Shown here: one piece after another, positions 21,447 through 54,811 of the stretch
Position numbering within the stretch: the stretch's first letter is position 1
Layout of the letters: each line of letters begins with the position of its first letter
From: Agromyces badenianii
GTDB lineage: Bacteria > Actinomycetota > Actinomycetes > Actinomycetales > Microbacteriaceae
Assembly (NCBI RefSeq): GCF_003070885.1
Contig: NZ_CP028913.1
Span: 310,001-374,000 of the forward strand
Direction of reading: 5' to 3'
DNA length: 64,000 nt
Made by a program: the position numbers and the translations under genes
The notes under the pieces: model-generated
Database searches by the model: none
What the model was told of the DNA's origin: nothing
The model's input: the letters and a program-made list of their open reading frames with translations, nothing else

Positions 21447-21504
21447 TGCAGGGGATCACTGCTCAGAGGTGCCGTGGCGGGGGCATGAGGGCGAATCCCC
21501 TGCA
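21447..21504. repeat. 58-bp palindromic element A1 (solitary copy)
   Basis: It begins TGCAGGGGAT (21447-21456) and ends ATCCCCTGCA (21495-21504), a perfect 10-bp terminal inverted repeat with 38 bp between. The total length of 58 bp is the same as two other copies at 42893-42950 and 44029-44086. It lies in the divergent menC-menB promoter region and has no associated gene. Confidence 0.85.
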
Positions 21505-23769: not shown

Positions 23770-24822
23770 GTGGCGCGCCCGAAACCCCAGAGGATGAACC
23801 CCGCCGACGAGATCGCGAAACGCGAGACCGCACGTGCGAAGGGCGGTGCCCCGAACTCGACCGGCCGCTCGACGTCGAGGCGCACCGTCGCGGCGAACCC
23901 CGGCTCGAAGGCCGGAAGCGGGAAGGCTCCCGGTCGCTCCGATCGCGCCACGGCCGCCGACTGGCTGTCGGGCGCACGCCTGCGCACGCTGCCGCTCGCC
24001 ATCGCCCCGGTCGCGCTCGGCACGGGGGCGGGCATCGTCGCGATCCCCGACGGCCCGTGGCATCCGGCGCGAGCGCTGCTCGCCCTCGTCGTCGCCCTCG
24101 CGCTGCAGATCGGCGTCAACTACGCGAACGACTACTCCGACGGGGTGCGCGGCACCGACGAGCACCGGGTCGGCCCGGCCCGGCTCACCGGCTCGGGCGT
24201 CGCGAAGCCCAAGCAGGTGCTCGCCGTCGCGCTGAGCTTCTTCGCCCTCGCCGCAGTGGCGGGCCTCGCGCTCACCGTCGTGACCGGGCAGTGGTGGATG
24301 CTCGCCGTCGGCGCCGTGGCCATCGTCGCCGCCTGGTTCTACACCGGCGGCAAGCACCCCTACGGCTACTACGGTCTCGGCGAGCTGTTCGTGTTCGTGT
24401 TCTTCGGCATCGTCGCGACGGCCGGATCGGCCTTCGTGCAGGCACTCGACGTCAACCTCGAGGCCTGGCTCGGCGGCGTCGGGGTGGGCCTCATCGCCTG
24501 CGCGGTGCTCATGGCCAACAACCTGCGCGACGTCGCCCAAGACAAGGTCGCCGGCAAGCGCACCCTCGCGGTGCTCGTCGGGCCGCTCGCGGGGCGCATC
24601 CTGTTCGCGGTCTTCATGCTCGTACCGTTCGCGATCGTCGCGTTCTTCGCACTGCTCTACCCCACGGCGTGGCTCGTGATGTTCGCCCTGCTCGCGGCAC
24701 TGCCGGCCTGCCTGATCGTGCTCACCGCGAGGACGCCGCGCGAGCTCATCATCGCGCTGCAGCTCGCGAGCCTCACGGCCCTCGTCTACGGCATCGGGCT
24801 CGGGCTGGCGTTCGCGCTCTGA
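23770..24822 (+). CDS. menA: 1,4-Dihydroxy-2-naphthoate polyprenyltransferase
   Basis: A UbiA-family membrane enzyme that attaches the polyprenyl tail to DHNA. The 350 residues have a polar N-terminal extension (1-60) and about eight TMs. Both Asp-rich prenyl-diphosphate motifs are present: NYANDYSDGVRG near residue 118 and NNLRDVAQDKVAGKRT near residue 253. The GTG at 23770 is preferred because TAGCAT (23757-23762) lies seven nucleotides upstream; an ATG at 23794 would remove eight residues. The last 18 bases including the stop codon are repeated in tandem. Confidence 0.9.
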   Translation: MARPKPQRMNPADEIAKRETARAKGGAPNSTGRSTSRRTVAANPGSKAGSGKAPGRSDRATAADWLSGARLRTLPLAIAPVALGTGAGIVAIPDGPWHPARALLALVVALALQIGVNYANDYSDGVRGTDEHRVGPARLTGSGVAKPKQVLAVALSFFALAAVAGLALTVVTGQWWMLAVGAVAIVAAWFYTGGKHPYGYYGLGELFVFVFFGIVATAGSAFVQALDVNLEAWLGGVGVGLIACAVLMANNLRDVAQDKVAGKRTLAVLVGPLAGRILFAVFMLVPFAIVAFFALLYPTAWLVMFALLAALPACLIVLTARTPRELIIALQLASLTALVYGIGLGLAFAL

Positions 24823-24888
24823 CTGGCGTTCGCGCTCTGACTGGCGTTCGCGCTCTGACTGGCGTTCGCGCTCTGACTAGCGGTCGCG
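24805..24888. repeat. 18-bp tandem repeat spanning the menA stop codon
   Basis: The unit CTGGCGTTCGCGCTCTGA, which encodes the last menA codons plus its TGA, occurs as four perfect copies (24805-24822, 24823-24840, 24841-24858, 24859-24876). A degenerate fifth follows, inside which the convergent DUF4229 gene ends. Because every unit carries the stop, copy number does not change MenA. Confidence 0.95.
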
Positions 24889-33950: not shown

Positions 33951-34979
33951 GTGAGCGAGAACGACCGCACTGAGTGGCGCCCCGATGTGCTCGGCGAGCA
34001 CTTCGAGCAGCTCACTCTGCCGCTCGGACGCGACAGCGAGGGCGAGGTCGTCGCCACCCTCGTGCGGCACCGGCCGCCGTGGCGCCTGCGGATGAAGCCC
34101 GGCCCGGCATCGGGCGCCGACGTGCTCTACGTGCACGGCTGGAGCGACTACTTCTTCAACCCCGAGCTCGCCGAATACTGGTCGAACGCCGGCGCGCGCT
34201 TCTTCGCGCTCGACCTGCGCAAGTACGGCCGCAGCCTGCGCCCCGGCCAGACACCGGGGTTCATCACCGATCTCGCCGAGTACGACGCCGACATCGGTGC
34301 GGCGCTCGACGCGATGGGGCACGGGGCGCCCGATGCGGTGCTGCCCGCCTCGACGGCCAGCACCGGCCGCCCGCTGATCCTGCTCGGCCATTCGACCGGC
34401 GGCCTCACGCTCAGCCTGTGGGCCGCCCGGCACCGAGGGCGAGCCGCCGCGCTCGTGCTGAACAGTCCGTGGCTCGAGTTCCAGGCCAGCCGGGTCGGAC
34501 GCGAGGCGCTGGCGCCCGTGATCGGCTGGGGTGCGAAGGTCACCCCGCTGGCACCGCTGCCGAACGTCGACCTCGGGTTCTACACCCGCACGGTGGCGAA
34601 GGAGCAGGACGGCGAGTGGGAGTACAACCACGAGTGGCGGCCCGCTCGCGGGTTCACGACGCATCCGGCATGGTTGACCGCCGTGCTCGCGGGACACGCC
34701 ACCGTCGCCGCCCGCATCGACGTCGGTGCGCCGGTGCTCACCCTGCTGTCGAAGCGGTCGACCCTCCAGGCGCGCTGGGACCCGGCGATGGCGTCGAGCG
34801 ACATCGTGCTCGTCGTCGACGAGGTCGCCGAACGCACGCTGCGACTCGGTCAGACGGGTGCCGTCACCCGCATCGACGGCGCGCTGCACGACGTCTTCCT
34901 CTCGCGGAAGCCGGTGCGCGCCGCGGCGTACGCCGCCATCACCCAGTGGCTCTGCGGCTACGCCCCGCACCGCCGCTGA
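33951..34979 (+). CDS. Alpha/beta hydrolase (serine aminopeptidase S33-like)
   Basis: A 342-residue alpha/beta hydrolase. The nucleophile elbow GHSTG lies near residues 144-148 (LLGHSTGGLTLSLW), the oxyanion strand is VLYVHGWSDYFFNPEL near residue 57, and a late histidine lies in DGALHDVFLS near residue 310. It resembles monoacylglycerol-lipase/S33 proteins; the substrate is unknown. The start is GTG with a G-rich ribosome-binding site. After the stop, copies of the 9-mer that contains the stop codon recur. Confidence 0.85.
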   Translation: MSENDRTEWRPDVLGEHFEQLTLPLGRDSEGEVVATLVRHRPPWRLRMKPGPASGADVLYVHGWSDYFFNPELAEYWSNAGARFFALDLRKYGRSLRPGQTPGFITDLAEYDADIGAALDAMGHGAPDAVLPASTASTGRPLILLGHSTGGLTLSLWAARHRGRAAALVLNSPWLEFQASRVGREALAPVIGWGAKVTPLAPLPNVDLGFYTRTVAKEQDGEWEYNHEWRPARGFTTHPAWLTAVLAGHATVAARIDVGAPVLTLLSKRSTLQARWDPAMASSDIVLVVDEVAERTLRLGQTGAVTRIDGALHDVFLSRKPVRAAAYAAITQWLCGYAPHRR

Positions 34980-35042
34980 CGCGCCCGCCGCTGACGCCCC
35001 GCCGCCGCCCGCCGCCGCGCGCCGCTGATCGCCCGCCGCTGA
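34971..35042. repeat. Four copies of CGCCGCTGA beginning at the hydrolase stop codon
   Basis: The 9-mer CGCCGCTGA, whose TGA is the hydrolase stop in the first copy, occurs at 34971, 34986, 35020 and 35034. The spacer is GC-rich and partly repetitive. Like the menA repeat, it multiplies the stop codon. Confidence 0.7.
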
Positions 35043-35050
35043 CCACCCGC

Positions 35051-35118
35051 GTCGGAGGCAACGAGTCGCGTCGGAGGACGCGGATTGGTTGCCTCCGACC
35101 GGATTCGTTGCCTCCGAC
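35051..35118. repeat. 68-bp nested palindromic element B1
   Basis: The outer arms GTCGGAGGCAACGAGTC (35051-35067) and its inverse at 35102-35118 match at 16 of 17 positions. Inside, a second GTCGGAGG and a second inverted TTGCCTCCGAC form a nested pair. It has the same length and layout as B2 at 36274-36341. It lies 101 bp upstream of the nuclease-domain gene at 35220. Confidence 0.9.
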
Positions 35119-35219
35119 TGCGGCACGACTCGTCCTCGACAGCGGCATCGCGACGTCGTCCATTCCCAAGCCGGGCGCCGGGCGAGGTGCGGAGCGGGGA
35201 GGGGCGGCAGACTCGCGGG

Positions 35220-36272
35220 ATGCAGAGCCTGCCGACCACGCCGCACGGCCTCATCCGATTCGACGACGTTCGCACGATCGGTCGCGAGGCGGAGCTCGCC
35301 AGAGCGCTCGCGGCCGGCGAGGTCACGCGCATTCGCCGGGGGGTCTACGCGCGGGTCGCGGGCGAAGCCGCGGCAGGGTCGGCGGGCGAGCGCGACGCGC
35401 AGCGCTACCTGACCGCGGTGCTCGCGGCCGGGGAGACGATGCGGCATCCGGTCTTCACCGGCTTCTCGGCGCTCGCACTCGCCGGAATTCCGATCTTCGG
35501 CAGGTGGCCCGCCGACATCTCGGTGATGTCCACCGATGCGCATGGGCACAGGCGCGCCGGGGTCATCTCTGTGGCCGGCAGCTACGCGCCGACGCGCGCG
35601 ACCGAGGGCGGACACCTCGTGACATCCCTCGAGTTCTCGCTCATCCAGCTCTGCCGCCAGGCGACCCTGGCAGCAGCACTCACGGCGACGGATGCCGCGT
35701 TGCGCGTGCGGCGCTTCAGGCCGGGACGCCCCCGCACGACCATTGCGGCGATTCGAGCCGAGCATCAGCGGTTGTTGCCGTACCGCGGCAGCAGACGAAC
35801 CGAGGCGGTGCTCGCGCGTGCGACCGACAGCTCCGACACGCCGCTCGAGACGGTGGGGCGACTCGTCATGGAAGAGCTCGGATTCGAGGAGCCGGAACTC
35901 CAACACGAGCTGTGGCTTCCCGAACTCGCGAAACGGGCGTTCCTCGACTTCTACTGGCCGAGCGTCGATGCGGGCGGTGAGGCCGATGGGCAGGGCAAGT
36001 ACCTCGGGTCGGCCCGGGCGTCGGCGACGGCCGCAGCGGTGGTCATCGCCGAGAAGGAACGCGAGAACGCCGTTCGGCGTCAGGTTCGGGCGTTCGACCG
36101 GTGGGACTGGTCGGAGACCCTGCGTCGAACACCGCTCGAGCGGCGGCTGGTTGCGATGGGCGTCCCGCAGACCCGGCGCCGGTCGACTCTCGTCGGCTCG
36201 CCGGAGGAGCCGGCCTCGATCACCCCGATCTCGCGTCGGCGGCCCGGCGCTTCACGCCCGGAGCGAGCGTGA
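35220..36272 (+). CDS. AbiEi-like/Vsr-like nuclease-domain protein bracketed by B elements
   Basis: A 350-residue protein of a widespread but uncharacterised actinobacterial type. Residues 1-60 form a small helical domain like the AbiEi antitoxin N-terminus (GEVTRIRRGVYARVA). The C-terminal part carries a PD-(D/E)XK/Vsr-like core: TPLETVGRLVMEELGF near residue 204, then FLDFYWPSVD near residue 241 and EADGQGKYLG near residue 255, supplying the expected E, D and E-x-D-G-x-x-K positions. The ATG at 35220 is chosen; the frame upstream runs through element B1. Element B2 begins two bases after the stop. No AbiEii toxin gene is adjacent. The function is unknown. Confidence 0.75.
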   Translation: MQSLPTTPHGLIRFDDVRTIGREAELARALAAGEVTRIRRGVYARVAGEAAAGSAGERDAQRYLTAVLAAGETMRHPVFTGFSALALAGIPIFGRWPADISVMSTDAHGHRRAGVISVAGSYAPTRATEGGHLVTSLEFSLIQLCRQATLAAALTATDAALRVRRFRPGRPRTTIAAIRAEHQRLLPYRGSRRTEAVLARATDSSDTPLETVGRLVMEELGFEEPELQHELWLPELAKRAFLDFYWPSVDAGGEADGQGKYLGSARASATAAAVVIAEKERENAVRRQVRAFDRWDWSETLRRTPLERRLVAMGVPQTRRRSTLVGSPEEPASITPISRRRPGASRPERA

Positions 36273-36273
36273 G

Positions 36274-36341
36274 GTCGGAGGCAACGAGTCCCGTCGGAGG
36301 CAACGGATTCGGTACCTCCGACACGACTCGTTGCCTCCGGC
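36274..36341. repeat. 68-bp nested palindromic element B2
   Basis: It begins with GTCGGAGGCAACGAGTC (36274-36290), identical to the left arm of B1, and ends with GACTCGTTGCCTCCGG (36325-36340). A second GTCGGAGGCAACGGATTC and an inverted ACCTCCGAC lie inside. It starts two bases after the stop of the nuclease-domain gene, so the gene lies between two copies. Confidence 0.9.
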
Positions 36342-36416
36342 GCACGAGCGGCGCGGCGCGCAACTGCACGAGCAGGGCCGGCGGGCGGGCGGGCCGGCGG
36401 GAGGGTGCGCGGCACG

Positions 36417-37190
36417 CTACCGCGCGAACGGCCCGCGCAGCGCCGCCCACTGCAGCAGCATGATCGTCTTCGCGTCGACGATGTCGCGGCCGATGCGGTC
36501 GAGGGCGTCGTCGAAGCCGAGTTCGAGCACCTCGATGTCCTCGCCCTCGTCGGCGAGGCCGCCCGCACCCGAGCGGGTTCCGCCGCCGTAGGGAGCCGCG
36601 AAGAAGTGCAGCTTCTCGGTGACCGAACCCGGACTCATGTACACGTCGAAGACGTGCTCGACGGCGCCGACGGTGTGCCCGGTCTCCTCCTCGGCTTCGC
36701 GGCGGATCGCCGTCTCGGGGTCGTCCTCGTCGAGCAGCCCCGCGGCCGTCTCGATGAGCATGCCGTCGACGTGGTCGTTGACGTAGGCCGGGAAGCGGAA
36801 CTGACGGGTCAGCAGCACCGTGCGCTCGACGGCGTCGTAGAGCAGGATGCAGGCGCCGTCGCCCCGATCGTAGGTCTCGCGCTCCTCGGTCGTCCACCGG
36901 CCGTCGCGGTGCCGGAAGTCGAAGGTCGTCGCCCGCGTCACGTACCAGTTCGAGGTGAGCACGCGCACCTCGCGAACCCGCACGCGCGGGTTCGTCGCGA
37001 GATCGCGGCCGACCTGGTCGAGGCCCGTGCGGCCGCGCCGATCGGGCACGTCGACGCCCGGCTGCGACGCCCGCTCGCCGTCGGAGCCCGTGACCGAACC
37101 CGATCCCGTGCCGACTTCGGCCGCAGACATCCGCTCGCCCTCGGAGCCCGTGACCGAACCCGATCCCGTGCCGACGTCGGCCGCAGACAT
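36417..37190 (-). CDS. NUDIX hydrolase, GDP-mannose pyrophosphatase (NudK)-like
   Basis: A 257-residue hydrolase. The central domain resembles NudK: ETYDRGDGACILLYD near residue 103, the Nudix box GLLDEDDPETAIRREAEEET near residue 150 (first Nudix Glu replaced by Asp), then FDVYMSPGSVTEKLHFF and EDIEVLELGF. It probably cleaves GDP-mannose or ADP-ribose; which one is inference. The first 40 residues are two 20-residue repeats (MSAADVGTGSGSVTGSEGER-like) from a 60-bp duplication that also doubles the ribosome-binding site and the ATG (37190 and 37130). The true core starts near residue 63. Confidence 0.85.
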   Translation of the reverse strand: MSAADVGTGSGSVTGSEGERMSAAEVGTGSGSVTGSDGERASQPGVDVPDRRGRTGLDQVGRDLATNPRVRVREVRVLTSNWYVTRATTFDFRHRDGRWTTEERETYDRGDGACILLYDAVERTVLLTRQFRFPAYVNDHVDGMLIETAAGLLDEDDPETAIRREAEEETGHTVGAVEHVFDVYMSPGSVTEKLHFFAAPYGGGTRSGAGGLADEGEDIEVLELGFDDALDRIGRDIVDAKTIMLLQWAALRGPFAR

Positions 37191-37200
37191 CCGCTCGCCC
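37081..37200. repeat. 60-bp tandem duplication covering the RBS and start codon of the NUDIX gene
   Basis: Positions 37081-37140 and 37141-37200 are identical except for one base (37116 versus 37176). On the minus strand each copy contains GAGGGCGAGCGG-ATG, so the gene has two in-frame starts, each with its own ribosome-binding site. Confidence 0.97.
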
Positions 37201-37204
37201 TCGC

Positions 37205-37693
37205 TCAGCGGAAGTTCACGAACTGCAGCGCCACCTCGAGGTCTTTGCCCTTCAGCAGCGCCATCGTGGCCTGCAGGTCGTCGCGGCTCTTCGACGAGAC
37301 GCGCACCTCGTCGCCCTGCGTCTGGCTCTTGACGCTCTTCGGCGCCTCGTCGCGGATGATCTTGTTGATCTTCTTCGCGTTCTCGGAGTCGATGCCGGCC
37401 TTCATCGAGGTCTCGATGCGGAACTCCTTGCCCGACGCGAACGGCTCGCCGGCGTCGAGCGAGCGCAGCGAGATGCCGCGCTTGATGAGCTTCGCCTCGT
37501 AGACCTCGAGGATCGCCTTCGCGCGCTCTTCGCTGTTGGCCTTGATCAGCACCTTCTCGCCGGACTGCTCGATCGACGCGCCGACGTTCTTGAAGTCGTA
37601 GCGCTGCGCGACCTCTTTCTGCGCCTGGTGGAGGGCGTTGTCGGCCTCCATCTGGTCGACCTTGGAAACGATGTCGAACGTTGCATCTGCCAT
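37205..37693 (-). CDS. YajQ-family nucleotide-binding protein
   Basis: A 162-residue protein starting MADATFDIVSKVDQMEADNA and ending ALQFVNFR, the conserved ends of the YajQ/UPF0234 family. Members bind nucleic acid, or cyclic di-GMP in Xanthomonas, through two ferredoxin-like repeats. The role in actinobacteria is unknown. A minus-strand TACACT box (37700-37705) lies six nucleotides before the ATG, suggesting leaderless transcription. The NUDIX gene starts 15 bases beyond the stop and probably shares the mRNA. Confidence 0.9.
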   Translation of the reverse strand: MADATFDIVSKVDQMEADNALHQAQKEVAQRYDFKNVGASIEQSGEKVLIKANSEERAKAILEVYEAKLIKRGISLRSLDAGEPFASGKEFRIETSMKAGIDSENAKKINKIIRDEAPKSVKSQTQGDEVRVSSKSRDDLQATMALLKGKDLEVALQFVNFR

Positions 37694-37763
37694 TCCGCCA
37701 GTGTAACGACGAGCGGATGCCGCGAGCAGGGTGTCGTGCGCTGCGCCGCGGTGCTCGGGGCGA

Positions 37764-38783
37764 TCAGGCCGGCGGGCGGGCCGTCGAGGAGCGCACCCGC
37801 AACTCGTAGGGCAGGGGAGTGGCGGCGGGCGTCGCGGCATCCGTCGTGCTCGGCTCGAGCTCGTCCATCAGGATCTCGACCGCCATCTCGCCCTGCACGC
37901 GGGGGAACTGCGCGACGGTCGTGAGCCCGAAGAAGTCGGAGAGGTCGTGGTCGTCGATGCCGACGATCGAGACGTCGCGCGGCACGACGAGGCCGAGGTC
38001 GCGTGCGGCGAGCATCGAGCCGATCGCCATCTCGTCGGATGCCGCGTAGATCGCCGTCGGTCGGTCGTGCGGTGCGCCGAGCAGCTGCTTGGCGGCGTGG
38101 TACCCGCCGCGGATCGTGAAGTCGGCGGGAGCGAAGAGTCGAGGGTCGACCTCGATGGCGGCGTCGCGCAGGGCGCCTTCGTAGCCGATGCGACGGTTCG
38201 TCGGCAGGTGGAAGTCCATGTCGAACTCGAGGTGTCCGCCGATGTGGGCGATGCGGGTGTGGCCGAGGCCGATGAGGTGCTCGGTCGCGAGCCGGGCGAC
38301 CGCGACGTCGTCGATCGTGAGGGTGCGCACCCCCGGGATCGGTCCGCCGACGCCGACGAGCGGCTTGCCGAGTTCGTGCAGGCGGGCGACCTCGGGCTCG
38401 GTGAGTTCGAGCGAGACCGCGATGACCGCGTCGACGCGTCGGCGCAGGAGGAAGTGCTCGAAGACGCTCGCGCGCTCCTGCCCGTCGCCCGAGAGGTTGT
38501 AGAGCGTGAGGTCGTAGCCGCTGCGGAGCAACGACTGCTGCGCGCCTTCGAGCACGGAGGAGAAGAACCAGCGGTTGAGGAAGGGGATGACCACGCCGAT
38601 GTTGCGCGTGCGCCCCGAGGCCAGGCTCGAGGCGTTGGAGGAGACGACGTAGCCGAGCCGGGCGGCGGCCTCTTCGACCTTCGCCTTCGAGGTGGGCGAC
38701 ACGTGCCCGCGGCCGCTGAGTGCGCGCGAGACCGTCGCGGTGGACACCCCCGCGAGTCTCGCGACCTCTTCGATCCCGGCCAT
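37764..38783 (-). CDS. LacI-family transcriptional regulator
   Basis: A 339-residue repressor. The helix-turn-helix is at residues 1-25 (IEEVARLAGVSTATVSRALS), with the hinge helix near 45-58 (SSNASSLASG). The periplasmic-binding-like core contains VIPFLNRWFFSSVLEGAQQS near residue 65. It probably senses a sugar. The LacI-type operators in the window lie 7 kb away in the maltodextrin control region. This protein could bind them, but that is inference. GAGGAG precedes the ATG. Confidence 0.9.
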   Translation of the reverse strand: MAGIEEVARLAGVSTATVSRALSGRGHVSPTSKAKVEEAAARLGYVVSSNASSLASGRTRNIGVVIPFLNRWFFSSVLEGAQQSLLRSGYDLTLYNLSGDGQERASVFEHFLLRRRVDAVIAVSLELTEPEVARLHELGKPLVGVGGPIPGVRTLTIDDVAVARLATEHLIGLGHTRIAHIGGHLEFDMDFHLPTNRRIGYEGALRDAAIEVDPRLFAPADFTIRGGYHAAKQLLGAPHDRPTAIYAASDEMAIGSMLAARDLGLVVPRDVSIVGIDDHDLSDFFGLTTVAQFPRVQGEMAVEILMDELEPSTTDAATPAATPLPYELRVRSSTARPPA

Positions 38784-38792
38784 GGCTCCTCA

Positions 38793-38831
38793 TTCCCGGC
38801 CTCGCCGAGTCGTTCCCGGCCTCGCCGAGTC
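38793..38831. repeat. 20-bp tandem duplication in the lacI leader
   Basis: TTCCCGGCCTCGCCGAGTC occurs at 38793-38811 and 38813-38831, just upstream of the LacI-type gene (between its TAGGAT at 38838-38843 and its ribosome-binding site). The arrangement duplicates part of the 5' untranslated region. Confidence 0.8.
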
Positions 38832-38874
38832 AGGGGAATCCTATCGCCCGGTCTGCGACGCCCCGCGTGGCGGA

Positions 38875-38903
38875 TTGTCTGGACAGATCGGGTGCGGTAG
38901 AAA
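38875..38903 (+). promoter_or_regulatory. Promoter for the 54-residue membrane protein and PH-domain genes
   Basis: TTGTCT (38875-38880) and TAGAAA (38898-38903) are separated by exactly 17 bp, about 66 bp before the GTG of the small membrane protein. Confidence 0.55.
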
Positions 38904-38968
38904 TGCGTGGCGGGGCCGGGTCGGGGGCGGCGGCTTGCCCCAGTCGCCGTCTTGAAGGGAAAGCACCC

Positions 38969-39133
38969 GTGAAGTGGCTCAAGGGCATCGCCGTGGCGTT
39001 GGTCGTGATCTTCGCCTTGTTCTACATGATCAGTCGACCTGAGGACGCCGCGAACGTCGTGCAGGGCGCCTTCGGCGCGGTCGTATCGGCATCCGAGGCA
39101 GTGGGCAGGTTCTTCACCTCCCTCGCCACATGA
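38969..39133 (+). CDS. Small single-span membrane protein of unknown function
   Basis: A 54-residue protein. It starts at GTG 38969, after a strong ribosome-binding site (GAAGGGA at 38954-38960). Residues 5-23 form one TM helix (GIAVALVVIFALFYMIS); the rest is a short amphipathic tail (NVVQGAFGAVVSASEAVGRF). It lies four bases before the PH-domain gene, suggesting an operon. The function is not recognisable. Confidence 0.65.
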   Translation: MKWLKGIAVALVVIFALFYMISRPEDAANVVQGAFGAVVSASEAVGRFFTSLAT

Positions 39134-39137
39134 CGCC

Positions 39138-39788
39138 ATGAGCGTGTTCGGCTTCGACCCGCGCGTCGAGCGGCATCTCATCGCCGACGAGGGCGAGGTG
39201 ATCGTCGACGAGGTGCGCAAGCACTGGGCCGCGATCGTCGGCGCGATGCTCGAGATGCTCGCGGCGATCCCGGCGCTGCTGCTCCTGGCGTGGGTGCCCT
39301 CGCAGCTGTACTGGTTGCCGTTGTTCCTCGCCCTCTTCCTCGCCGTGCACGGGCTGTGGCGCATCCTGCAGGCCCGCATGGACCGCTTCGTGATCACCAA
39401 CATGCGGGTGTTCCGCGTGCACGGGATCCTCTCGCAGCGCATCGCCACGATGCCGATCTCGCGGATCCTCGACATCTCGGTGCACATGCCGATCATCGGC
39501 CGCATCTTCGGCTACGGCCACTTCGTGTTCGAGTCGGCGGCGCAAGACCAGGGGCTCCGCGAGATCCGCTTCGTCGGGTCGCCCGATCAGCGCGGGGCCA
39601 CGATCCAGCGGGTCATCCAGCGCTCCGGCCTGCGCGGGCCCGCGCGACCTGTGCGCCGCGACGACGAGTACGACCGCAGCCGCACGCCCAGGTACGACCC
39701 CGCCCCGCGACCCGATCTCTACGACACGAGGCCGCAGCGAGACCAGAACGACACCGCCGAGATGCCGTGGTGGCGCGCGTCGAACTGA
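39138..39788 (+). CDS. PH-domain (bPH2, YdbT-like) membrane protein
   Basis: A 216-residue protein with two TMs (near residues 36-52 and 56-72), followed by a bacterial PH2 domain (DRFVITNMRVFRVHGILSQR, then MPISRILDISVHMPIIGRIF). The C-terminal 45 residues are disordered and rich in R, D and Y. Such proteins are membrane-associated and poorly understood. It is preceded by the 54-residue membrane protein. Confidence 0.85.
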   Translation: MSVFGFDPRVERHLIADEGEVIVDEVRKHWAAIVGAMLEMLAAIPALLLLAWVPSQLYWLPLFLALFLAVHGLWRILQARMDRFVITNMRVFRVHGILSQRIATMPISRILDISVHMPIIGRIFGYGHFVFESAAQDQGLREIRFVGSPDQRGATIQRVIQRSGLRGPARPVRRDDEYDRSRTPRYDPAPRPDLYDTRPQRDQNDTAEMPWWRASN

Positions 39789-39921
39789 CGTGGCCGAGTG
39801 GGATGCAACCGGCATCGCGCGGAATGCGGTGCGGCGGGCTCGCCGCCGATTTCACGCACCGGCCCTCGGCGGGTATTCTTGACAGGCCCCCGGTCGTGTG
39901 CAGAACGTGGTCGGGTGCAAT

Positions 39922-40006
39922 GGCGAGTTACCCAAGCGGCCAAAGGGATCTGACTGTAAATCAGACTGCTCAGCATTCGGGGGTTCGAATCCCTCACTCG
40001 CCACCA
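39922..40006 (+). tRNA. tRNA-Tyr (GTA)
   Basis: A class II tRNA with a long variable arm. The acceptor stem GGCGAGT (39922-39928) pairs with ACTCGCC (39996-40002), the anticodon stem TCTGA/TCAGA encloses the loop CTGTAAA with anticodon GTA, and the T-loop is TTCGAAT. The CCA tail is encoded (40004-40006). Confidence 0.97.
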
Positions 40007-40010
40007 GAGA

Positions 40011-40030
40011 AGCCCCGGTCAGCCGGGGCT
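40011..40030 (+). terminator. Hairpin terminator after tRNA-Tyr
   Basis: AGCCCCGG (40011-40018) pairs perfectly with CCGGGGCT (40023-40030) with a four-base loop. Only a short T-run (TTT) follows. Confidence 0.7.
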
Positions 40031-40117
40031 TTCGTGGTTTCGGGCGCGGTCTTCGACGTCAGCAGCTGTGCTCGGTTCTCCTCGCTCGGCGCGGCGCGGT
40101 CGCACTAGTTTGAACGC

Positions 40118-40990
40118 ATGAGTGAACACGAGTCGTCGACCGGTGACCACGAAGCGGCGCGTGCCCATGGCGCGAGGGATGCCGCGGCATCCGCTGCCCT
40201 GCTCGAGCTCGCTCGCCGCATCGCGCTGCAAGCGGCGGAGTTCGCGCTCGACGCGCGGCGCGGCGGGGTCAGCGTGGCCGCCACGAAGTCGTCGCCCGTC
40301 GACATCGTGACCGCGGTCGACCGGGACACCGAGGCGCTCATCCGCCGGCTCATCCTCGAGGCGAGGCCCGACGACGGCATCGTCGGCGAAGAGGACGACG
40401 CCCTCGTCGGTACGAGCGGCGTGAACTGGGTGGTCGACCCGATCGACGGCACCGTGAACTTCCTCTACGGCATTCCGGCCTGGGCGATCAGCATCGCGGT
40501 CGTCGAGGGCTCGGCCGACCCCGCAGCCTGGACCGCGATCGCCGGAGTCGTCGTCAACCCGAGCACGGGGGAGGTGTTCGAGGCCGCGGCCGGCGGCGGC
40601 GCGCGACTCGACGGGCGAAAGATCCGAGCGAATGCGGATGTCTCGCTCGCGCAGGCCCTCGTCGGCACCGGGTTCTCGTACTCGGCCGAGGGGCGACGCG
40701 CGCAGGCCGAGGTGCTCGTGACGCTGCTGCCGAAGGCGCGAGACGTCCGTCGCATCGGTTCCGCCGCGCTCGATCTCTGCGCGGTCGCCGCCGGTCGCCT
40801 CGACGCGTACTACGAGAGCGGGCTGCACCCGTGGGATCACGCGGCCGGAGCCCTGATCGCCCGAGAAGCCGGGGCCAGGGTCGGCGGCCCTGCCGGCGGT
40901 CCGGCAACCGTCGAGCTCGTGGTCGCTGCGGCGCCCTCGCTCTCCGACGAGCTCACCGAAGCACTGCGCGCCGCCGGAGTGGATGCCTGA
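40118..40990 (+). CDS. Inositol-monophosphatase-family phosphatase
   Basis: A 290-residue lithium-sensitive-type phosphatase. The metal-binding motif WVVDPIDGTVNFLYGIP lies near residue 107, the first Asp/Glu ligands are in GIVGEEDD near residue 88, and the C-terminal motif is WDHAAGALIAREAGARVG near residue 238. Substrates could be inositol phosphate, histidinol phosphate or PAP. No neighbouring gene helps. TAGTTT (40106-40111) lies six nucleotides before the ATG. Confidence 0.9.
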   Translation: MSEHESSTGDHEAARAHGARDAAASAALLELARRIALQAAEFALDARRGGVSVAATKSSPVDIVTAVDRDTEALIRRLILEARPDDGIVGEEDDALVGTSGVNWVVDPIDGTVNFLYGIPAWAISIAVVEGSADPAAWTAIAGVVVNPSTGEVFEAAAGGGARLDGRKIRANADVSLAQALVGTGFSYSAEGRRAQAEVLVTLLPKARDVRRIGSAALDLCAVAAGRLDAYYESGLHPWDHAAGALIAREAGARVGGPAGGPATVELVVAAAPSLSDELTEALRAAGVDA

Positions 40991-41244
40991 CCCGGGAGCG
41001 GCGCGCCGGTGCGCGGCGCACTGGTGCCGCGGCCGGCTTCGGCGGGTGACTCCCGTTCTCTTACGTAATCATGCGGATGTCGCGCGGGCCTGCCGCGCCG
41101 GCACCTGAGAATCTCCGGTTCGTATGGCATGCACAGCTGAGACCGGGGTAGTCTTCTTTATCAAGCTGTTATCTCGGCGTGATGTCGGGATGTCCACCTC
41201 CCCCCATCCTTGTTCGCTCCACGACGCCGAGAGTTCCCCCACAC

Positions 41245-42810
41245 GTGCTCGAGTCCCCTCTCGTGCCCGACGGTTCATCGCCAGGCACCCAGGTCCCTTC
41301 GCGGCCTGAGCGACCCCTGACCCGTCGTGAGCTTCGTGAACGCGAGGCGGCAGCCGCGGTGCAGGCGGCGGCTCCCGCGGCCCCGGCAGCGCCGGTGACG
41401 ACAGCGCCGGTGTCGACGGATGCCTCGTGGCAACCGCGTCTCGCGCCTGCGGCCGCACCCGCTGCCCTGTCCGACCAGGCGCTCCTTCGCCCCCGTCGTT
41501 CGGCGGCCAGCACCGCTCCCGCCCTCGCCGCTGGCGCACCTCGCATCCCGACCTCACCGGCCGAGCCGGTCGACCGCCCCGTCGGCAGGAACTCGGCCTT
41601 CGCTGTTTCCCGACCCGCGCCGGCGCCCGAGGTCGCCGTCGACGCGCTCTTCGCCGGGCTCGCCACCGACGCACCCGAGACGGAGTCGTCCGGCGACGCA
41701 CCTCGTCGAGAGCGCGCCTCCGAAGCGCTGCGCGCCTCGCGCGCCGAGCGCAAGGCGGCGAAGTCCGTCGAGGGCACGACCGACACTCCTCGGAATTCGT
41801 TCCCTGCTGAGCCGGTGCGCGAGGCCGAAGCGGTGGTCGACGATTTCGCCGCCTTGATCGCGGCATCGGCCGGAGCCGCGCCCGTCGCCCCAGCGGTCGC
41901 GCAAGCGGGTGCCGTCGCACCGCCCGCGGTGCGGGTCGCTGCAGACTCGACGCCGGCCGCTCCCGCGGCGGAGGCGCCGACCGAGCGGCCGAGGCGCGCG
42001 GCCAGCACCGTGCCCCGGCGAAACCCGGCACGCACACCCGCCGCGGCGACTGCCCCGAGCGGTCCCGTCGGGCCCGCCGCCAAGAGCCGGGTGACGCGAT
42101 CGAGCCGCATCGCTCGTGTGTCCAGCGGATTCGCGGCGATGGGCTTCGCCGCACTGCTCGCGGTCGCGACATCCGTGCCGGCGCTCTCGCTGCTCTCGCC
42201 CGCCGACGTGCAGGCCATGGCCCTCACCGGCGATGCGCTCGGCAGCGAACCCGGTCAGCAGGTCGAGATCACCGGCGGCACGCTCGCCCAGACGGTCGAG
42301 CGCGAGGCCTACGCCACGCAGACGATCGACGAGTACGCGCGTGCGGCCGGCATCCGGGCGGAGGCGACGTTCACGAACAACCCGGCGGGCACCGTCCAGT
42401 GGCCGTTCGCGGTCGGCGTGCACATCGGCGACCAGTTCGGCTACCGCGACTGCGCCGGCTGCTCGAGCGACCACGGTGGTCAGGACTTCAACCCCGGGCT
42501 GGGCGCCGAGATCCAGTCGATCGCCGACGGCACGGTGGCGAACTCGACCGACTCGGGCGGATCCCTCGGCGTCGTCATGATGATCGACCACGTCATCGAC
42601 GGCGAACGCATCACGAGTGTCTACGCGCACATGGAGTACGGCTCGCGCCGCTTCGAGACCGGCGACACGGTGCGGGTCGGCGACGTCATCGGGCAGACGG
42701 GCGACACCGGCATGTCGACGGGCCCGCACCTGCACTTCGAGATCCGCCTCGGCGGCATGGGCGGCACCAAGGTCGACCCGCTCGTCTGGCTGTACGAGAA
42801 CACGAACTGA
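41245..42810 (+). CDS. Membrane-anchored M23 metallopeptidase (LytM-like)
   Basis: A cell-wall endopeptidase of about 521 residues. The first roughly 290 residues are low-complexity A/P/R/E (cytoplasmic), then one TM (GFAALLAVATSVPALSLL). The C-terminal M23 domain has the zinc motifs HGGQDF and HLHFEIRLGG, with YAHM between. This is a type II membrane protein exposing the peptidase outside. The start is uncertain. GTG 41245 is chosen because the TRRELREREAAAAV segment common in these N-termini follows soon after; GTG 41179 or ATG 41182 would add about 22 proline-rich residues. The 254-bp upstream region shows no riboswitch I can support. Confidence 0.82.
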   Translation: MLESPLVPDGSSPGTQVPSRPERPLTRRELREREAAAAVQAAAPAAPAAPVTTAPVSTDASWQPRLAPAAAPAALSDQALLRPRRSAASTAPALAAGAPRIPTSPAEPVDRPVGRNSAFAVSRPAPAPEVAVDALFAGLATDAPETESSGDAPRRERASEALRASRAERKAAKSVEGTTDTPRNSFPAEPVREAEAVVDDFAALIAASAGAAPVAPAVAQAGAVAPPAVRVAADSTPAAPAAEAPTERPRRAASTVPRRNPARTPAAATAPSGPVGPAAKSRVTRSSRIARVSSGFAAMGFAALLAVATSVPALSLLSPADVQAMALTGDALGSEPGQQVEITGGTLAQTVEREAYATQTIDEYARAAGIRAEATFTNNPAGTVQWPFAVGVHIGDQFGYRDCAGCSSDHGGQDFNPGLGAEIQSIADGTVANSTDSGGSLGVVMMIDHVIDGERITSVYAHMEYGSRRFETGDTVRVGDVIGQTGDTGMSTGPHLHFEIRLGGMGGTKVDPLVWLYENTN

Positions 42811-42892
42811 CCTGCGGCCGCGGTGTTGCGTTCGGCGGTTCGGTTCCTCGCCATCCCAGCCACATCGTCGGCACCTGTGGCTTGGCGCGAGT

Positions 42893-42950
42893 TGCAGGGG
42901 ATTCCCGAGCTTGCCCCCTCTGAGCCGGCCATAGCCGCGATTCCCCTGCA
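42893..42950. repeat. 58-bp palindromic element A2
   Basis: It begins TGCAGGGGA (42893-42901) and ends TCCCCTGCA (42942-42950). It is the same 58-bp length as A1 and A3 and lies 65 bp upstream of the nuclease-domain gene at 43016. Confidence 0.9.
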
Positions 42951-43015
42951 CGGGAGGGCCTGAGCTTATCCACAGGCAGCGGAGGTGAACCTGCCGCACG
43001 CGCGAGACTCTCGCT

Positions 43016-43966
43016 TTGACCTCAGTCCACGCCTCCGTGGTTCACCCGCCGCCGGCAGCTGCAGCGGCAGCGGCAGCGGCTACAGCGGTGCGAGCGCGCG
43101 GCGGCGTGGTTCCGGTGCGGGTGCTCGACGAGCTGGGAGTGACGAAGTCAGCCAGAGTCGCTGCGATCGGCGCCGGAGCGCTGATGAGCGTCCGGCAGGG
43201 CTGGTACAGCGTGCCCGATGCGCCGCCTGACGTCGTGAGCGCGGTGCGTGTCGGCGGTGCGCTGACTGCGGCATCCGTCGCGAGGCTGCACGGCCTCTGG
43301 CTCCTCGGCGATGCGCGACTGCACGTTCGGGTTCCAGGCAGTGCATCCCGACTGCGGTCGCCCGACGATCGAAGCGTTCCCCTCGCACCCTCGCACAGCG
43401 TCTGCGTGCACTACCGCGAGCGGCCAGGAGGTGCGGGAGACCTGCCGGCGCGCGACGGCCTGCCGCGTGCCCTCGCAGAGATGTTCAGTTGCGCCGGGCC
43501 GTTGCCGGCGATGATCGCGGTCGACTCGGCACTGAACTCGGGCGAGCTCGGGGCGGCGGGGAGAGCCGAGCTGCGCACACTCGTCGGAGGAGCGCACCGA
43601 CGGCTCGTCGACGCCGCGGACGCCGGGTGCGACTCGGGGCTCGAGACCATCGCCCGGATGCTGCTGGTCTCGAGACGGGTGCGTCATCGCACGCAGGCGT
43701 GGATCGCAGGGGTCGGACGCGTCGACCTGCTGATCGGCGATCGGCTCGTCGTCGAGCTCGACGGTGCGGGATTCCACATCGATCGTCCCGACTTCGAGAA
43801 GGATCGCCGCAGAGGCCTCGAGCTCGCACGGCAGGGGTATCTGCTCGTGCGGCTCACCTATCGGATGGTCGTCAACGACGGGGAGACGACCCGCGCCACG
43901 CTGCTCGCGCTCATCGCACGCGGCGATCACCGGTGGGGTGTGCGAGCGCAGCATCACGTGCGGTGA
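43016..43966 (+). CDS. DUF559/Vsr-like nuclease-domain protein bracketed by A elements
   Basis: A 316-residue protein. Residues 28-75 resemble the AbiEi/HTH-like N-terminus found with this family (TKSARVAAIGAGALMSVRQG). The C-terminal 100 residues are a DUF559-type Vsr/PD-(D/E)XK fold: GLETIARMLL near residue 206, RVDLLIGDRLVVELDGAGFH near 226-245, and then FEKDRRRGLELARQGYLLVR. Asp and Glu are in the expected catalytic positions. The TTG start at 43016 has a GAGACT box six nucleotides upstream; a GTG at 43037 is an alternative. 58-bp elements lie 65 bp before and 62 bp after it. The function is unknown. Confidence 0.75.
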   Translation: MTSVHASVVHPPPAAAAAAAAATAVRARGGVVPVRVLDELGVTKSARVAAIGAGALMSVRQGWYSVPDAPPDVVSAVRVGGALTAASVARLHGLWLLGDARLHVRVPGSASRLRSPDDRSVPLAPSHSVCVHYRERPGGAGDLPARDGLPRALAEMFSCAGPLPAMIAVDSALNSGELGAAGRAELRTLVGGAHRRLVDAADAGCDSGLETIARMLLVSRRVRHRTQAWIAGVGRVDLLIGDRLVVELDGAGFHIDRPDFEKDRRRGLELARQGYLLVRLTYRMVVNDGETTRATLLALIARGDHRWGVRAQHHVR

Positions 43967-43987
43967 GTGAGCGTGCGGTGAGCGAGG
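43958..43987. repeat. 15-bp tandem duplication spanning the stop codon of the DUF559 gene
   Basis: GTGCGGTGAGTGAGC (43958-43972), which contains the stop TGA, is followed by GTGCGGTGAGCGAGG (43973-43987), 13 of 15 identical. Confidence 0.75.
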
Positions 43988-44028
43988 CTCCGTCGCCGGC
44001 CATGGACGGTGGAGTGAGGCGTCAGGAT

Positions 44029-44086
44029 TGCAGGGGATTCCGGCTCGTAGGCCTCCCAGAAGGGCCAACAAAGGGAATCCCCTGCA
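44029..44086. repeat. 58-bp palindromic element A3
   Basis: TGCAGGGGATTC (44029-44040) and GAATCCCCTGCA (44075-44086) are perfect 12-bp inverted arms. It is exactly 58 bp, like A1 and A2. It lies 62 bp downstream of the DUF559 gene and 100 bp beyond the end of the GH13 gene on the other strand. Confidence 0.9.
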
Positions 44087-44186
44087 GCGTGCGAGTCCCG
44101 GGTAGGGCGCGCGCTGCCCGAGCGCGGTGGGGCAGTGCGCGCGCAGCCCGCACCGCGCGCCGGCGCGCAGCGCGACCGAGCGCGGC

Positions 44187-45869
44187 CTACGCCGTGAGCC
44201 AGGCCGTGGTGTCGGCGGGCAGCACGCGCGCGTCGAGCGGCTCGCTCGACAGCAGCACCTCACCGTCGGGCAGCTCGACCGGCTCGCTGCCGGTGTTGGC
44301 GACCACGACGAGATCGCCGTTCCGGAACGCCACGACCGAGTCGGGGAAGCCGGGCAGCCATTCGAGGGTGCCGGCGCCGAGGTCGCGCGCGCGCCGTAGG
44401 GCGAGGGCATCACGGTAGAGCGACAGCGTCGACGTCGGGTCGCCGAGCTGGCGATCGCGCGCGAGCGACGCCCACTGTGCGGGTTGCGGCAGCCACGAGG
44501 CATCCGACGGCCCGAAGCCGTAGGAGGGAGCGGCGGATTCCCAGGGCAGGGGCACGCGGCATCCATCGCGCCCGTACCGCTCGCCCGCCGTGCGGAACCA
44601 GGTCGGGTCTTGACGGGCATCGTCGGGCAGGTCGATGACCTCGGGCAGGCCGAGCTCTTCACCCTGGTAGAGGTAGACCGAACCGGGCAGCGCGAGCATG
44701 AGCGCGGTCGCGGCACGGGCGCGGCGCAGGCCGGGCGCGTACTCGGGCAGGCCCTTCGAGCGGGGGCCGAGGCCGTGGCCCTGCGGGTTCGGCTCGGTGA
44801 CCGACAGGCGGGTCGCGTGACGAACCACGTCGTGGTTCGAGAGCACCCAGGTCGACGGGGCGCCGACGGCGGAGAACGCGTCGAGCGAGTCGTCGATCAC
44901 GCGGCGCAGCGCGTCGGCGTTCCACGGCGTCTCGAGGTAGGCGAAGTTGAACGCCTGGTGCATCTCGTCGGGGCGCACCCACTTCGCGACACGGGGCAGG
45001 GGGTCGACCCACGCCTCGGCGGCGAGGATGCGGTCGCCGGGGTACTCGTCGAGCAGCGCCCGCCAATCGCGGTAGATCTCGTGCACGCCGTCTTGGCCCC
45101 AGTAGGGCGCGCTGTCGCCGGGCTCGGCTGAGATCTGGGGTTCGAGGGGCACTCCGGATGCCGCGGGCGCGCCGCCGCCCATGCTGCCGCCCTCGGCCGG
45201 GGGCGTGTAGTCGGGCAGGCCCTCGGCCTTGATCATGCCGTGGGCGACATCGACGCGGAACCCGTCGACACCGCGGTCGAGCCAGAAGCGGAGGATGCGG
45301 CGGAACTCCTCGCGGACCTCTTCGTTGGTCCAGTCGAAGTCGGGCTGCGAGCTGTCGAAGAGGTGCAGGTACCACTGTCCGGGGGTGCCGTCGGCTTCGA
45401 GCACCCGCGACCAGGCGGGGCCGCCGAAGATGGACTCCCAGTTGTTCGGAGCCTCGCCGCCGTCGGCGCCGCGGCCGTCGCGGAAGAGGTAGCGGGCGCG
45501 CTCGGGGCTGCCCGGTGCGGCCGCGAGGGCGGCCTGGAACCACTCGTGCGCGTCTGAGGAGTGGTTCGGCACGAGGTCGACGATGACGCGGATGCCGCGG
45601 CCATGCGCTTCGGCGACCATCGCGTCGAAGTCGGTGAGCGTGCCGAAGAGCGGGTCGACGTCGCAGTAGTCGGCGACGTCGTAGCCTGCATCGCGCTGCG
45701 GCGAGGTGTAGAAGGGGGAGAGCCAGATCGCATCGATGCCGAGCTCCTGCAGCGCGCCGAGCCGCGAAGTGATGCCGGCGAGGTCGCCCATGCCGTCGCC
45801 GTTCGCGTCGGCGAACGACCGGGGGTAGATCTGGTAGATCGCGGCAGTGCGCCACCATTCGGAAGTCAT
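44187..45869 (-). CDS. GH13 alpha-glucosidase / oligo-glucosidase
   Basis: A 560-residue glycoside hydrolase acting on alpha-1,4 or alpha-1,6 glucosides taken up as maltodextrin or related sugars. GH13 regions are clear: IVDLVPNHSSDAHEWF near residue 97, the nucleophile GFRVDVAHGM near residue 201, acid/base AAEAWVDPL near residue 283, and VLSNHDVVRH near residue 345. No signal peptide is present, so it is cytoplasmic. Divergent from malE. A minus-strand TACAGT (45877-45882) lies seven nucleotides from the ATG, and a LacI-type operator overlaps the -35 region, so it is probably controlled together with the transporter. Confidence 0.93.
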   Translation of the reverse strand: MTSEWWRTAAIYQIYPRSFADANGDGMGDLAGITSRLGALQELGIDAIWLSPFYTSPQRDAGYDVADYCDVDPLFGTLTDFDAMVAEAHGRGIRVIVDLVPNHSSDAHEWFQAALAAAPGSPERARYLFRDGRGADGGEAPNNWESIFGGPAWSRVLEADGTPGQWYLHLFDSSQPDFDWTNEEVREEFRRILRFWLDRGVDGFRVDVAHGMIKAEGLPDYTPPAEGGSMGGGAPAASGVPLEPQISAEPGDSAPYWGQDGVHEIYRDWRALLDEYPGDRILAAEAWVDPLPRVAKWVRPDEMHQAFNFAYLETPWNADALRRVIDDSLDAFSAVGAPSTWVLSNHDVVRHATRLSVTEPNPQGHGLGPRSKGLPEYAPGLRRARAATALMLALPGSVYLYQGEELGLPEVIDLPDDARQDPTWFRTAGERYGRDGCRVPLPWESAAPSYGFGPSDASWLPQPAQWASLARDRQLGDPTSTLSLYRDALALRRARDLGAGTLEWLPGFPDSVVAFRNGDLVVVANTGSEPVELPDGEVLLSSEPLDARVLPADTTAWLTA

Positions 45870-53317: not shown

Positions 53318-54811
53318 ATGAGCGACGCCCCCATGCCGCCTGCCGGATGGTATCCCGACCCTGACAATGCGACGGCGCAGCGGTACTGGGACGGTGCAGC
53401 CTGGACGGAACATCGGGCCAGCATCCTGCCCGCTGCTAAGCCCGCGTTCGGCGCAGCGGTTCTCGGCCATATACGCGGCTGGTTTGGTCGGCTCACGCCG
53501 CTCGGGTGGATCGCCTTCGTCGCGCTCGCGCTGCTCACTGTCATGGCGTTCGGGAGCAGTGGATTCGGCAGCGGGCTGATCATGCTCGGCCTGATCGCGT
53601 TGATCACCGGCGTGTACTCTCTCGCGACTCGGCGCCCGTCGTGGGCGGGGATCGCAAGTCGGAAGATCGCTGCGGGCGTCCTCGTCGGCGGTTTGCTCAC
53701 AACGTTCATTGGAGGTGCCGCATCCAGCGCAACAAACCCGCGCGACGCGTCGTCGGCCGTAGCAGAGACGACCGAGCCCTCGGAGGAACCGACCTTCAAG
53801 ACAACGCCTTCCCCCAGCCCGACCGCTGACGTCGAGCCAGACGCCCCAGAGAGCGTGATCGCGGCTGAAGATGGCCCGGCCGTCAAGATCGCCAACGGTT
53901 CTGCAACCCAAACGACGGCACTCGCCCTCCTCGACACCCTTCCCGTGAAGGGCCGGGCCCCGAAGACCGGCTACGAGCGCGAAGCGAAGTTCGGCACGGC
54001 TTGGCTCGACGTTGATCGGAACGGTTGCGACACCCGGAACGACATCCTCGCCCGCGACCTCGAGCCTGAGGTGAAGTCGGGGCCGTGCAAGGTGACATCG
54101 GGAACGATGCTCGACCCCTACACCGGCAAGACGATCGACTTCGTGCGCGGCAACACGACATCGCTCGCAGTGCAGATCGATCACGTCGTCTCACTCATGA
54201 ATGCATGGGAGACCGGCGCACAGAAACTGACTCAAGCGCAGCGGATCAGCCTCGCAAACGACCCGATCAACCTCTTCGCTGTCGGTGGTCCCACCAACAG
54301 CCAGAAGGGCGCTGGCGACGCGGCGACCTGGCTCCCGCCGAAGAAGGACTTCCGCTGCACGTATGCCGCCCACCAGGTCTCCGTGAAGGCCACCTACGGG
54401 TTGTGGGTCACCCAGCCGGAACACGACGCCCTCACCCGGATCCTCAGCGGATGTCCTGACGAGCCTGCAGTCACATCTGCGTTTACCCCCGCGGCGCAGC
54501 CGGCTCCGGCTCCCGCTCCGGCCCCTGCATCGGAGCCGGCCCCTGCACCCGCACCGGCCCCTGCACCCGCACCGGCCCCTGCACCCGCACCGGCCCCTGC
54601 ACCCGCACCCGCACCGGCCCCGGCCCCTGCGCCCGCACCGGCCCCTGCGCCCGCGCCAGCGCCGGAACCAGCGCCCGCACCCGCCCCTGCTCCGGTCTAC
54701 TACGAGAACTGCGACGCGGTTCGCGCTGCCGGGGCCGCGCCGATCTACGCCGGCGACCCTGGGTACTCCCGCAAGCTCGACCGTGATGGAGACGGCATCG
54801 CCTGCGAATAG
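53318..54811 (+). CDS. Multidomain membrane protein: DUF2510 - TMs - HNH (DUF1524) - (PA)n - Excalibur
   Basis: A 497-residue protein. Residues 5-35 are a DUF2510 module (PAGWYPDPDNATAQRYWDG). Three TMs follow (about 61-78, 84-102, 116-135). Residues 205-390 form a DUF1524-type HNH nuclease domain: TWLPPKKDFRCTY and the catalytic DHVVSLMNAWETGA near residue 288. A proline-alanine repeat follows (about 388-455), then the C-terminal Excalibur motif (DRDGDGIACE) with its calcium-binding Asp cluster. HNH-Excalibur pairs occur in secreted nucleases. Here the TMs probably anchor the nuclease on the outer face. AAGGAGAG precedes the ATG. Confidence 0.85.
   Translation: MSDAPMPPAGWYPDPDNATAQRYWDGAAWTEHRASILPAAKPAFGAAVLGHIRGWFGRLTPLGWIAFVALALLTVMAFGSSGFGSGLIMLGLIALITGVYSLATRRPSWAGIASRKIAAGVLVGGLLTTFIGGAASSATNPRDASSAVAETTEPSEEPTFKTTPSPSPTADVEPDAPESVIAAEDGPAVKIANGSATQTTALALLDTLPVKGRAPKTGYEREAKFGTAWLDVDRNGCDTRNDILARDLEPEVKSGPCKVTSGTMLDPYTGKTIDFVRGNTTSLAVQIDHVVSLMNAWETGAQKLTQAQRISLANDPINLFAVGGPTNSQKGAGDAATWLPPKKDFRCTYAAHQVSVKATYGLWVTQPEHDALTRILSGCPDEPAVTSAFTPAAQPAPAPAPAPASEPAPAPAPAPAPAPAPAPAPAPAPAPAPAPAPAPAPAPAPAPAPEPAPAPAPAPVYYENCDAVRAAGAAPIYAGDPGYSRKLDRDGDGIACE
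54541..54594. repeat. 18-bp minisatellite encoding the proline-alanine linker
   Basis: The unit CCCTGCACCCGCACCGGC occurs three times without change (54541-54558, 54559-54576, 54577-54594). Degenerate copies extend to about 54690. It encodes the Pro-Ala linker of the HNH/Excalibur protein and should vary in length between strains. Confidence 0.85.

Follow-up and report, generated by a model that had tools for sequence, protein, structure and literature searches.

The 64,000-nucleotide stretch of the Agromyces badenianii chromosome analysed here (the window; positions 310,001 to 374,000 of contig NZ_CP028913.1, assembly GCF_003070885.1) contains a nuclease gene, gene A (43016..43966, + strand), which lies between two 58-bp palindromic elements, A2 (42893..42950) on its 5' side and A3 (44029..44086) on its 3' side. 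We propose that gene A and these elements represent a single nuclease gene with its own cognate palindromes, a module that follows the logic of the REPtron, is built from unrelated parts and is inherited vertically on the chromosome. We assign a probability of about 0.65 to this reading as a whole. So far, the recognised example of a DNA-processing enzyme that resides in a genome together with dispersed palindromes of its own has been the REPtron, as outlined in parts of PMC8266576, and the spread of these palindromes is still an open question.

The elements, to which no strand is assigned, share a common architecture. A2, A3 and a third, solitary copy, A1 (21447..21504), each contain inverted 9-bp arms (TGCAGGGGA) with zero mismatches, and in A3 the exact arms extend to 13 bp. 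A1 is located in the gap between two genes that we judge, from their sequence rather than by family search, to be menC-like and menB-like. In the complete genome (3.05 Mb, one contig), the 9+9-bp arms occur at the exact spacing seven times with no mismatch and two more times with three, while the reversed control pattern, allowing up to three mismatches, occurs once. A2 thus shares its spacing with six more genomic copies, and all seven are 58 bp long. They read TGCAGGGGAWTY, about 7 free bases, ATG, a free middle and then the inverted repeat of the same. The outer 10+10 arms agree at 97%, the interiors at 44% in the better orientation, compared with 33% for random sequence of equal composition. 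Within the window, a 14-bp arm with up to three mismatches is matched 14 times against a shuffle mean of 4.87, and none of 100 shuffles reaches 14. The elements can fold and are intergenic; an Rfam scan of 34800-44400 returned one tRNA and no other RNA family. Five of the seven stand alone beside other genes. The preliminary description of this DNA had named solitary copies being as common beside all kinds of genes as beside DUF559 genes as the outcome that would speak against its proposal, and that outcome is thus found in part.

We next consider the protein. The longest frame of gene A starts with a TTG at 43016, which places A2 and A3 at distances of 65 and 62 bp, as first described; homologs point to a start nearer 43088, where the conserved core begins. 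At E <= 1, Pfam returns only MTES_1575 (E 4.6e-5, 23.8 bits, under its cut-off of 38.2), the best match by E-value, and DUF559 (E 1e-4, 22.6 bits, above its cut-off of 20.6), so the initial DUF559/Vsr-like label holds; a HUH (Y1) tyrosine enzyme is not matched. NCBIfam contains no matching family, and the PADLOC matches, to AbiEi and to homing endonucleases, are all weak (E 0.0005 to 0.007). In an AlphaFold2 model (predicted local distance difference test score 92.3), residues 1-178 in conserved-core numbering match the fold of the AbiEi antitoxin 6y8q, and residues 181-288 match the EDxHD homing endonuclease I-Bth0305I and Vsr (3r3p, 1cw0). The protein thus models as an AbiEi antitoxin-type DNA-binding part joined to an EDxHD/Vsr-type endonuclease. 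Glu-186, Asp-213, Asp-225, His-230 and Asp-239 are invariant in an alignment of orthologs (28 rows), and Glu-223 is nearly so. One of our locus sets comprises loci L039-L069 (n = 31) minus L040, L068 and L069, and another uses 26 of 30 loci (L and G numbers are our handles for loci and genomes). Mean pairwise identity is 46% in the front, winged helix-turn-helix part, 52% in the middle and 65% in the nuclease. That the DNA-binding end differs most, a check proposed at the outset, and the nuclease least is the pattern one would predict for an active enzyme whose specificity shifts.

Relatives of gene A are bordered by palindromes of their own. By reading, we found a matched element pair in 23 of 30 Agromyces ortholog loci, with arm sequences that vary by species (TGCAGGGGAT, TGCAGGCGAT, TGCAGGAGAT, TTCAGGAGATC, GCATGAGAATCC, TTCGCAGGATGA, GAAAACAGGATGAG). 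Entirely different palindromes are found at 80 named loci that represent many genera of Actinomycetota; examples are TTGCTGTAACTC in Schumannella, CTTCTCGGTCGC in a metagenome-assembled Agrococcus genome and GACGAATCCGGGGCGATC in Trueperella. A strict matched-pair score was passed by 40 of 74 named loci (six of the 80 had flanks too short to be included) but by none of the 370 dinucleotide shuffles and none of the 1050 decoy placements, which overlap each other; at a looser cut of 20 the figures are 41 of 74 loci and 6 of 1050 decoys. The arrangement is therefore beyond chance, as had been suspected from two cases. Agromyces paralogs (33-39% identity) pass in 11 of 20 cases. CATGAGA element pairs are also found around other small genes (L296:2990-3720 and L315:2990-3520, with zinc-binding motifs by eye), and element pairs are thus not limited to the nuclease gene. 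These palindromes might be ordinary hairpins, such as terminators, that resemble each other by chance; they are indeed intergenic, foldable and frequently located between convergent genes. Upstream and downstream elements nevertheless share species-specific arms, their core spacing is fixed at 54 bp, they co-occur with the gene, and the shuffle and decoy controls rule out terminators or chance, so that we assign this explanation a negligible probability.

The dispersed copies covary with the gene. We searched three core patterns across 60 Agromyces genomes, in none of which the same patterns read backwards gave a match. The 34 genomes that contain an ortholog by our own cut (31 with a strong match and 3 with split matches) hold 210 pattern matches, as compared with 9 in the 26 genomes without; at least one match is present in 33 of 34 and 7 of 26, respectively. 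These counts retain five V-pattern matches (one each in G007, G014, G017, G021 and G046) that resemble coding sequence at a 40-bp gap, and for G059 two flanking copies are an assumption. The element types include CATGAGAAT and CAGGATGA. In the 29 genomes with a readable gene-side type, 129 of 156 solitary matches are of the type found beside the own gene, a figure reached in 0 of 20,000 permutations of the genome labels. Palindrome type also follows the protein tree, on which the three types are explained by two changes, the minimum, with 5 of 29 rows untyped and uncounted and with weak support for the T group (63/58); the CAGGNGAT type arose at least twice, one origin being within the CATGAGA clade. 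The cores are 54 bp apart in 137 of 148 retrieved elements, most of which were fetched with patterns permitting five spacings. None of the 117 solitary-region copies lies within a predicted gene, as compared with 3015 of 3720 random placements. Symmetrised profiles distinguish a type-specific outer core from inner A(T)G and CC positions, which all three types have in common; each half-site thus looks as though its two portions were contacted by separate portions of the protein. From the covariation, we infer that the gene A protein may bind the 58-bp element.

How such binding could be achieved is suggested by proteins related to each half. According to passages in PMC7319586, the site bound by AbiEi consists of two inverted repeats of 23 bp with 3 bp between them, and in the repeat pairs bound by Rv2827c this distance is 13 bp; I-Bth0305I, an EDxHD enzyme, forms a dimer on its target, which is nearly 60 bp long, as stated in part of PMC3943268. 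With 23+13+23 = 59, and with an EDxHD target of nearly 60 bp, the 58-bp element would fit both protein halves, which leads us to a two-protomer model. The AbiEi-type front parts of two protomers may bind the two inverted half-sites of about 21-23 bp each as a monomer pair, and the C-terminal EDxHD/Vsr-type domains would then meet over the variable middle of the element. If a cut at this middle or in an extruded cruciform were then repaired with another copy as template, tandem and dispersed copies could result. This last step draws on REPtrons, on element arrays and on the co-occurrence of gene and elements, and we hold cutting and copying by the nuclease with less confidence than the pairing of nuclease and cognate palindromes. 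The copies beside the gene would also be compatible with autoregulation, via A2.

Such autoregulation could be the whole story: the elements may be promoter binding sites, operators of an AbiEi-like autorepressor with a regulon, in which the nuclease part is secondary. The predicted AbiEi fold of the front part, an element geometry resembling that of the AbiEi and Rv2827c operators, conserved arms around drifting interiors, and some slots common to several species are all in line with this. However, a second copy is located 3' of the gene, and the nuclease is the best conserved part of the protein. Solitary copies also prefer convergent gaps (40 of 117, versus 125 of 646 random intergenic places, edges excluded), and only 18 of 117 are found in divergent ones (genes were predicted with a simple caller of our own). 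Finally, slots are gained and lost among near relatives. An operator function as the sole explanation is thus unlikely.

We compared individual slots to follow this turnover. For seven of the nine solitary sites of G003, compared with G002 and also with G048, one element is shared with G002, four have no matching G002 element and two gave no call; an additional shared element is found at L255/L267. One of the absences in G002 is an imprecise 109-bp difference right after a stop codon, and the outgroup G048 still has the element. In G002 and G048, another palindromic repeat, CTCATGTGA...TCACATGAG, replaces or accompanies elements (L388, L380, L383, L387). On closer look some shared slots are kept, while L262/L311, L260/L335 and L264/L345 are not the same slot. 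We compared the A1 gap in 30 loci: G000, G044 and G052 have elements of the matching type there, G036 has a related one, G001, G005, G021 and G022 have unrelated palindromes, and the nearest relative, G025, has none. At L362, L364, L365 and L372, this gap upstream of the menB-like gene is taken up by other palindrome families (CCCGCGGGGACGCTTGTG, CCGAGTGATGACG, GGGGTTTCGATACG, TTCTCAGGACG). We had considered static conserved sites as an explanation for shared slots; given the turnover and the unrelated palindromes in this gap, the shared slots look partly like tolerant places. Tandem arrays of elements are present at L059, L273, L283, L330 and L331; in the last four, two to four elements are regularly spaced, with the spacer sequence included in the repeat. 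A tblastn search of 100 fetched regions (E 0.01) detected no gene remnants at solitary sites. Taken together, elements are mostly inherited, at times multiply where they stand and are frequently lost, and several palindrome families are tolerated in some gaps.

The gene itself stays in place. Gene A is flanked by genes that, judging by similarity, encode an M23 peptidase and, in convergent orientation, an alpha-glucosidase. A relative, paralogs included, is present in 55 of 60 Agromyces genomes (E 1e-10). Among the 30 best Agromyces ortholog loci, 25 have both neighbours, two have one at a contig edge and three are found elsewhere. The same neighbours in 27 of 30 loci are the behaviour of a resident gene. 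The preliminary description had instead seen in 42893-44086 a member of a mobile or selfish class; that it is a transposon or homing unit which moves in one piece and has the elements for ends is an account we consider improbable. The gene occupies the same slot in these 27 loci, and close relatives are rare on extrachromosomal DNA (3 of 72,556 plasmid and 1 of 50,697 phage records). The records concerned are the Tsukamurella plasmids NZ_LR134454, NZ_LR134466 and NZ_LR134468 and phage MT839994, with relatives of 32-36% identity, two of the plasmid-borne ones being annotated 'AbiEi family antitoxin'. The own genome contains gene A and one 33% identical paralog, and thus no fresh, near-identical copies of gene plus ends. 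This paralog (L040; genome positions 1176304-1177161) has one stop inside the match and its own pair of 66-bp GCGGATATACGATCCG elements. We saw no precise empty site, the M23/glucosidase slot of gene-less genomes lying outside this comparison.

The solitary elements are unevenly distributed along the chromosome. In 11 complete Agromyces genomes, the half of the chromosome nearest the origin contains 63 of 72 solitary clusters, and the outermost fifth contains none; gene A itself is about 260-575 kb from dnaA. The elements could accordingly be chromosome-organising sites, origin-proximal protein anchors used in a manner comparable to parS-type sites. The origin proximity is real in the counts, but it is inseparable from distance to the gene, which accounts equally well for the pattern (Wilcoxon p 0.45), and shared slots mean that clusters are not independent, also between species. 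Turnover among close relatives and the lack of an ortholog, by the cut used, in 26 of 60 Agromyces genomes further argue against an organising role as the main explanation, which we regard as very improbable.

Several of our results weigh against the proposed pairing of one nuclease with its cognate palindromes. Seven of the 30 ortholog loci (L045, L047, L049, L051, L052, L055 and L057) lack a matched pair, several of them being one-sided, and 34 of 74 named loci fail the strict test, whose score and threshold were fixed after a first view of the named-locus palindromes. The mismatches with the gene-side type are concentrated in genomes that carry a second type: in G046, whose gene is of the CAGGAGATC type, there are eight CATGAGA elements, in G011 there are five, and G028 has five of CAGGATGA. 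Gene A is apparently split by frameshift over two frames in G008, G043 and G052, and these genomes retain 6 to 11 elements. The covariation does not represent many independent evolutions, because element type follows ancestry. The copy number is low, with seven elements in the own genome. Finally, we found no recent insertion with a clean junction, and the losses that we saw are imprecise.

A second such unit is found 7 kb away. As had been described, another repeat family (B1, 35051..35118, and B2, 36274..36340; no strand assigned) encloses gene B (35085..36272, + strand), which encodes an AbiEi_4 front part according to Pfam and a putative PD-(D/E)xK nuclease. The longest frame of gene B overlaps B1, and the start is likely near 35220. 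Glu-221, Asp-254, Glu-265, Asp-267 and Lys-271 are invariant among its relatives (E, D, E-x-D-G-x-x-K). In a Foldseek search with the gene B model, the front part matches 6y8q (E 4.3e-4), and no nuclease match is found under 0.001. The gene A and gene B proteins share no BLASTP similarity, and their profiles align in hhalign at 92% (E 5.9e-7, 220 columns). Matched palindromes of their own are present in 14 of 29 relatives of gene B. We conclude that unit B (35051-36340) belongs to the same class as a second, remote member; the earlier suggestion of two members of one mobile class is thus supported as to the class, with AbiEi-like fronts in both models, and not as to mobility. The window also contains tandem repeats in or beside coding sequence at 54464-54709 (18 bp), 24794-24888 (18 bp) and 37066-37185 (60 bp).

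We compared the module to known systems. As in REPtrons (TnpAREP/RAYT and REPs), described in parts of PMC8266576, cognate palindromes stand on both sides of a single chromosomal gene and are dispersed between other genes as well; the gene is resident and shows no signs of mobility, and recognition would be lineage-specific, here judging from covariation. In contrast to the HUH tyrosine enzyme of REPtrons, the gene A enzyme is of the AbiEi plus EDxHD/Vsr type. The 25-bp flanks of A1-A3 contain no GTAG-type tetranucleotide at the palindrome foot, and the A elements are 58 bp long with a 12-13-bp spacer and few in number. The predicted EDxHD/Vsr catalytic fold, with conserved acidic and histidine residues, is shared with I-Bth0305I, whereas the DNA-binding part is AbiEi-like, gene A stands by itself in an intergenic slot that stays the same, and copies of its supposed target flank it and occur at other places in the genome. 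The model likewise resembles the AbiEi antitoxin and Rv2827c of type IV AbiE systems, but gene A is fused to a nuclease, and its neighbours are the M23 peptidase and alpha-glucosidase genes rather than an AbiEii (DUF1814) toxin gene. The best Pfam match by E-value, though below cut-off, is to the MTES_1575-type Vsr restriction endonuclease domain. In the relevant sections of PMC3710099, this domain sits in very large HEPN-containing conflict proteins, and palindromes are not mentioned. Finally, insertion sequences and transposons would form multiple near-identical copies of gene plus ends and show precise empty sites or target duplications; here the genome contains gene A and one 33% paralog, and differences at solitary sites are imprecise. 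Our searches of open-licence PubMed Central full texts brought up no account of such a link between nuclease and palindromes, and the wider association of AbiEi-type nucleases with private palindromes is apparently undescribed.

If the proposed pairing is true, a second system with an unrelated enzyme would exist, and the REPtron-like arrangement would have evolved more than once. It would provide an independent model for how palindromes spread, and a function for DUF559/MTES_1575-AbiEi proteins, whose annotation in many cases goes no further than antitoxin-like or unknown. Nuclease-element pairs that change in specificity would be natural material for studying the co-evolution of a DNA-binding domain and a long target. 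More tentatively, and at slightly less than even odds, gene A may belong to a large unrecognised class of AbiEi-nuclease modules across Actinomycetota, each with a private palindrome family that its nuclease makes and maintains. Many species-specific intergenic palindromes of GC-rich actinobacteria would then be products of such nucleases, a second, independent REPtron-like invention, to which the origin bias may add a role in chromosome organisation.
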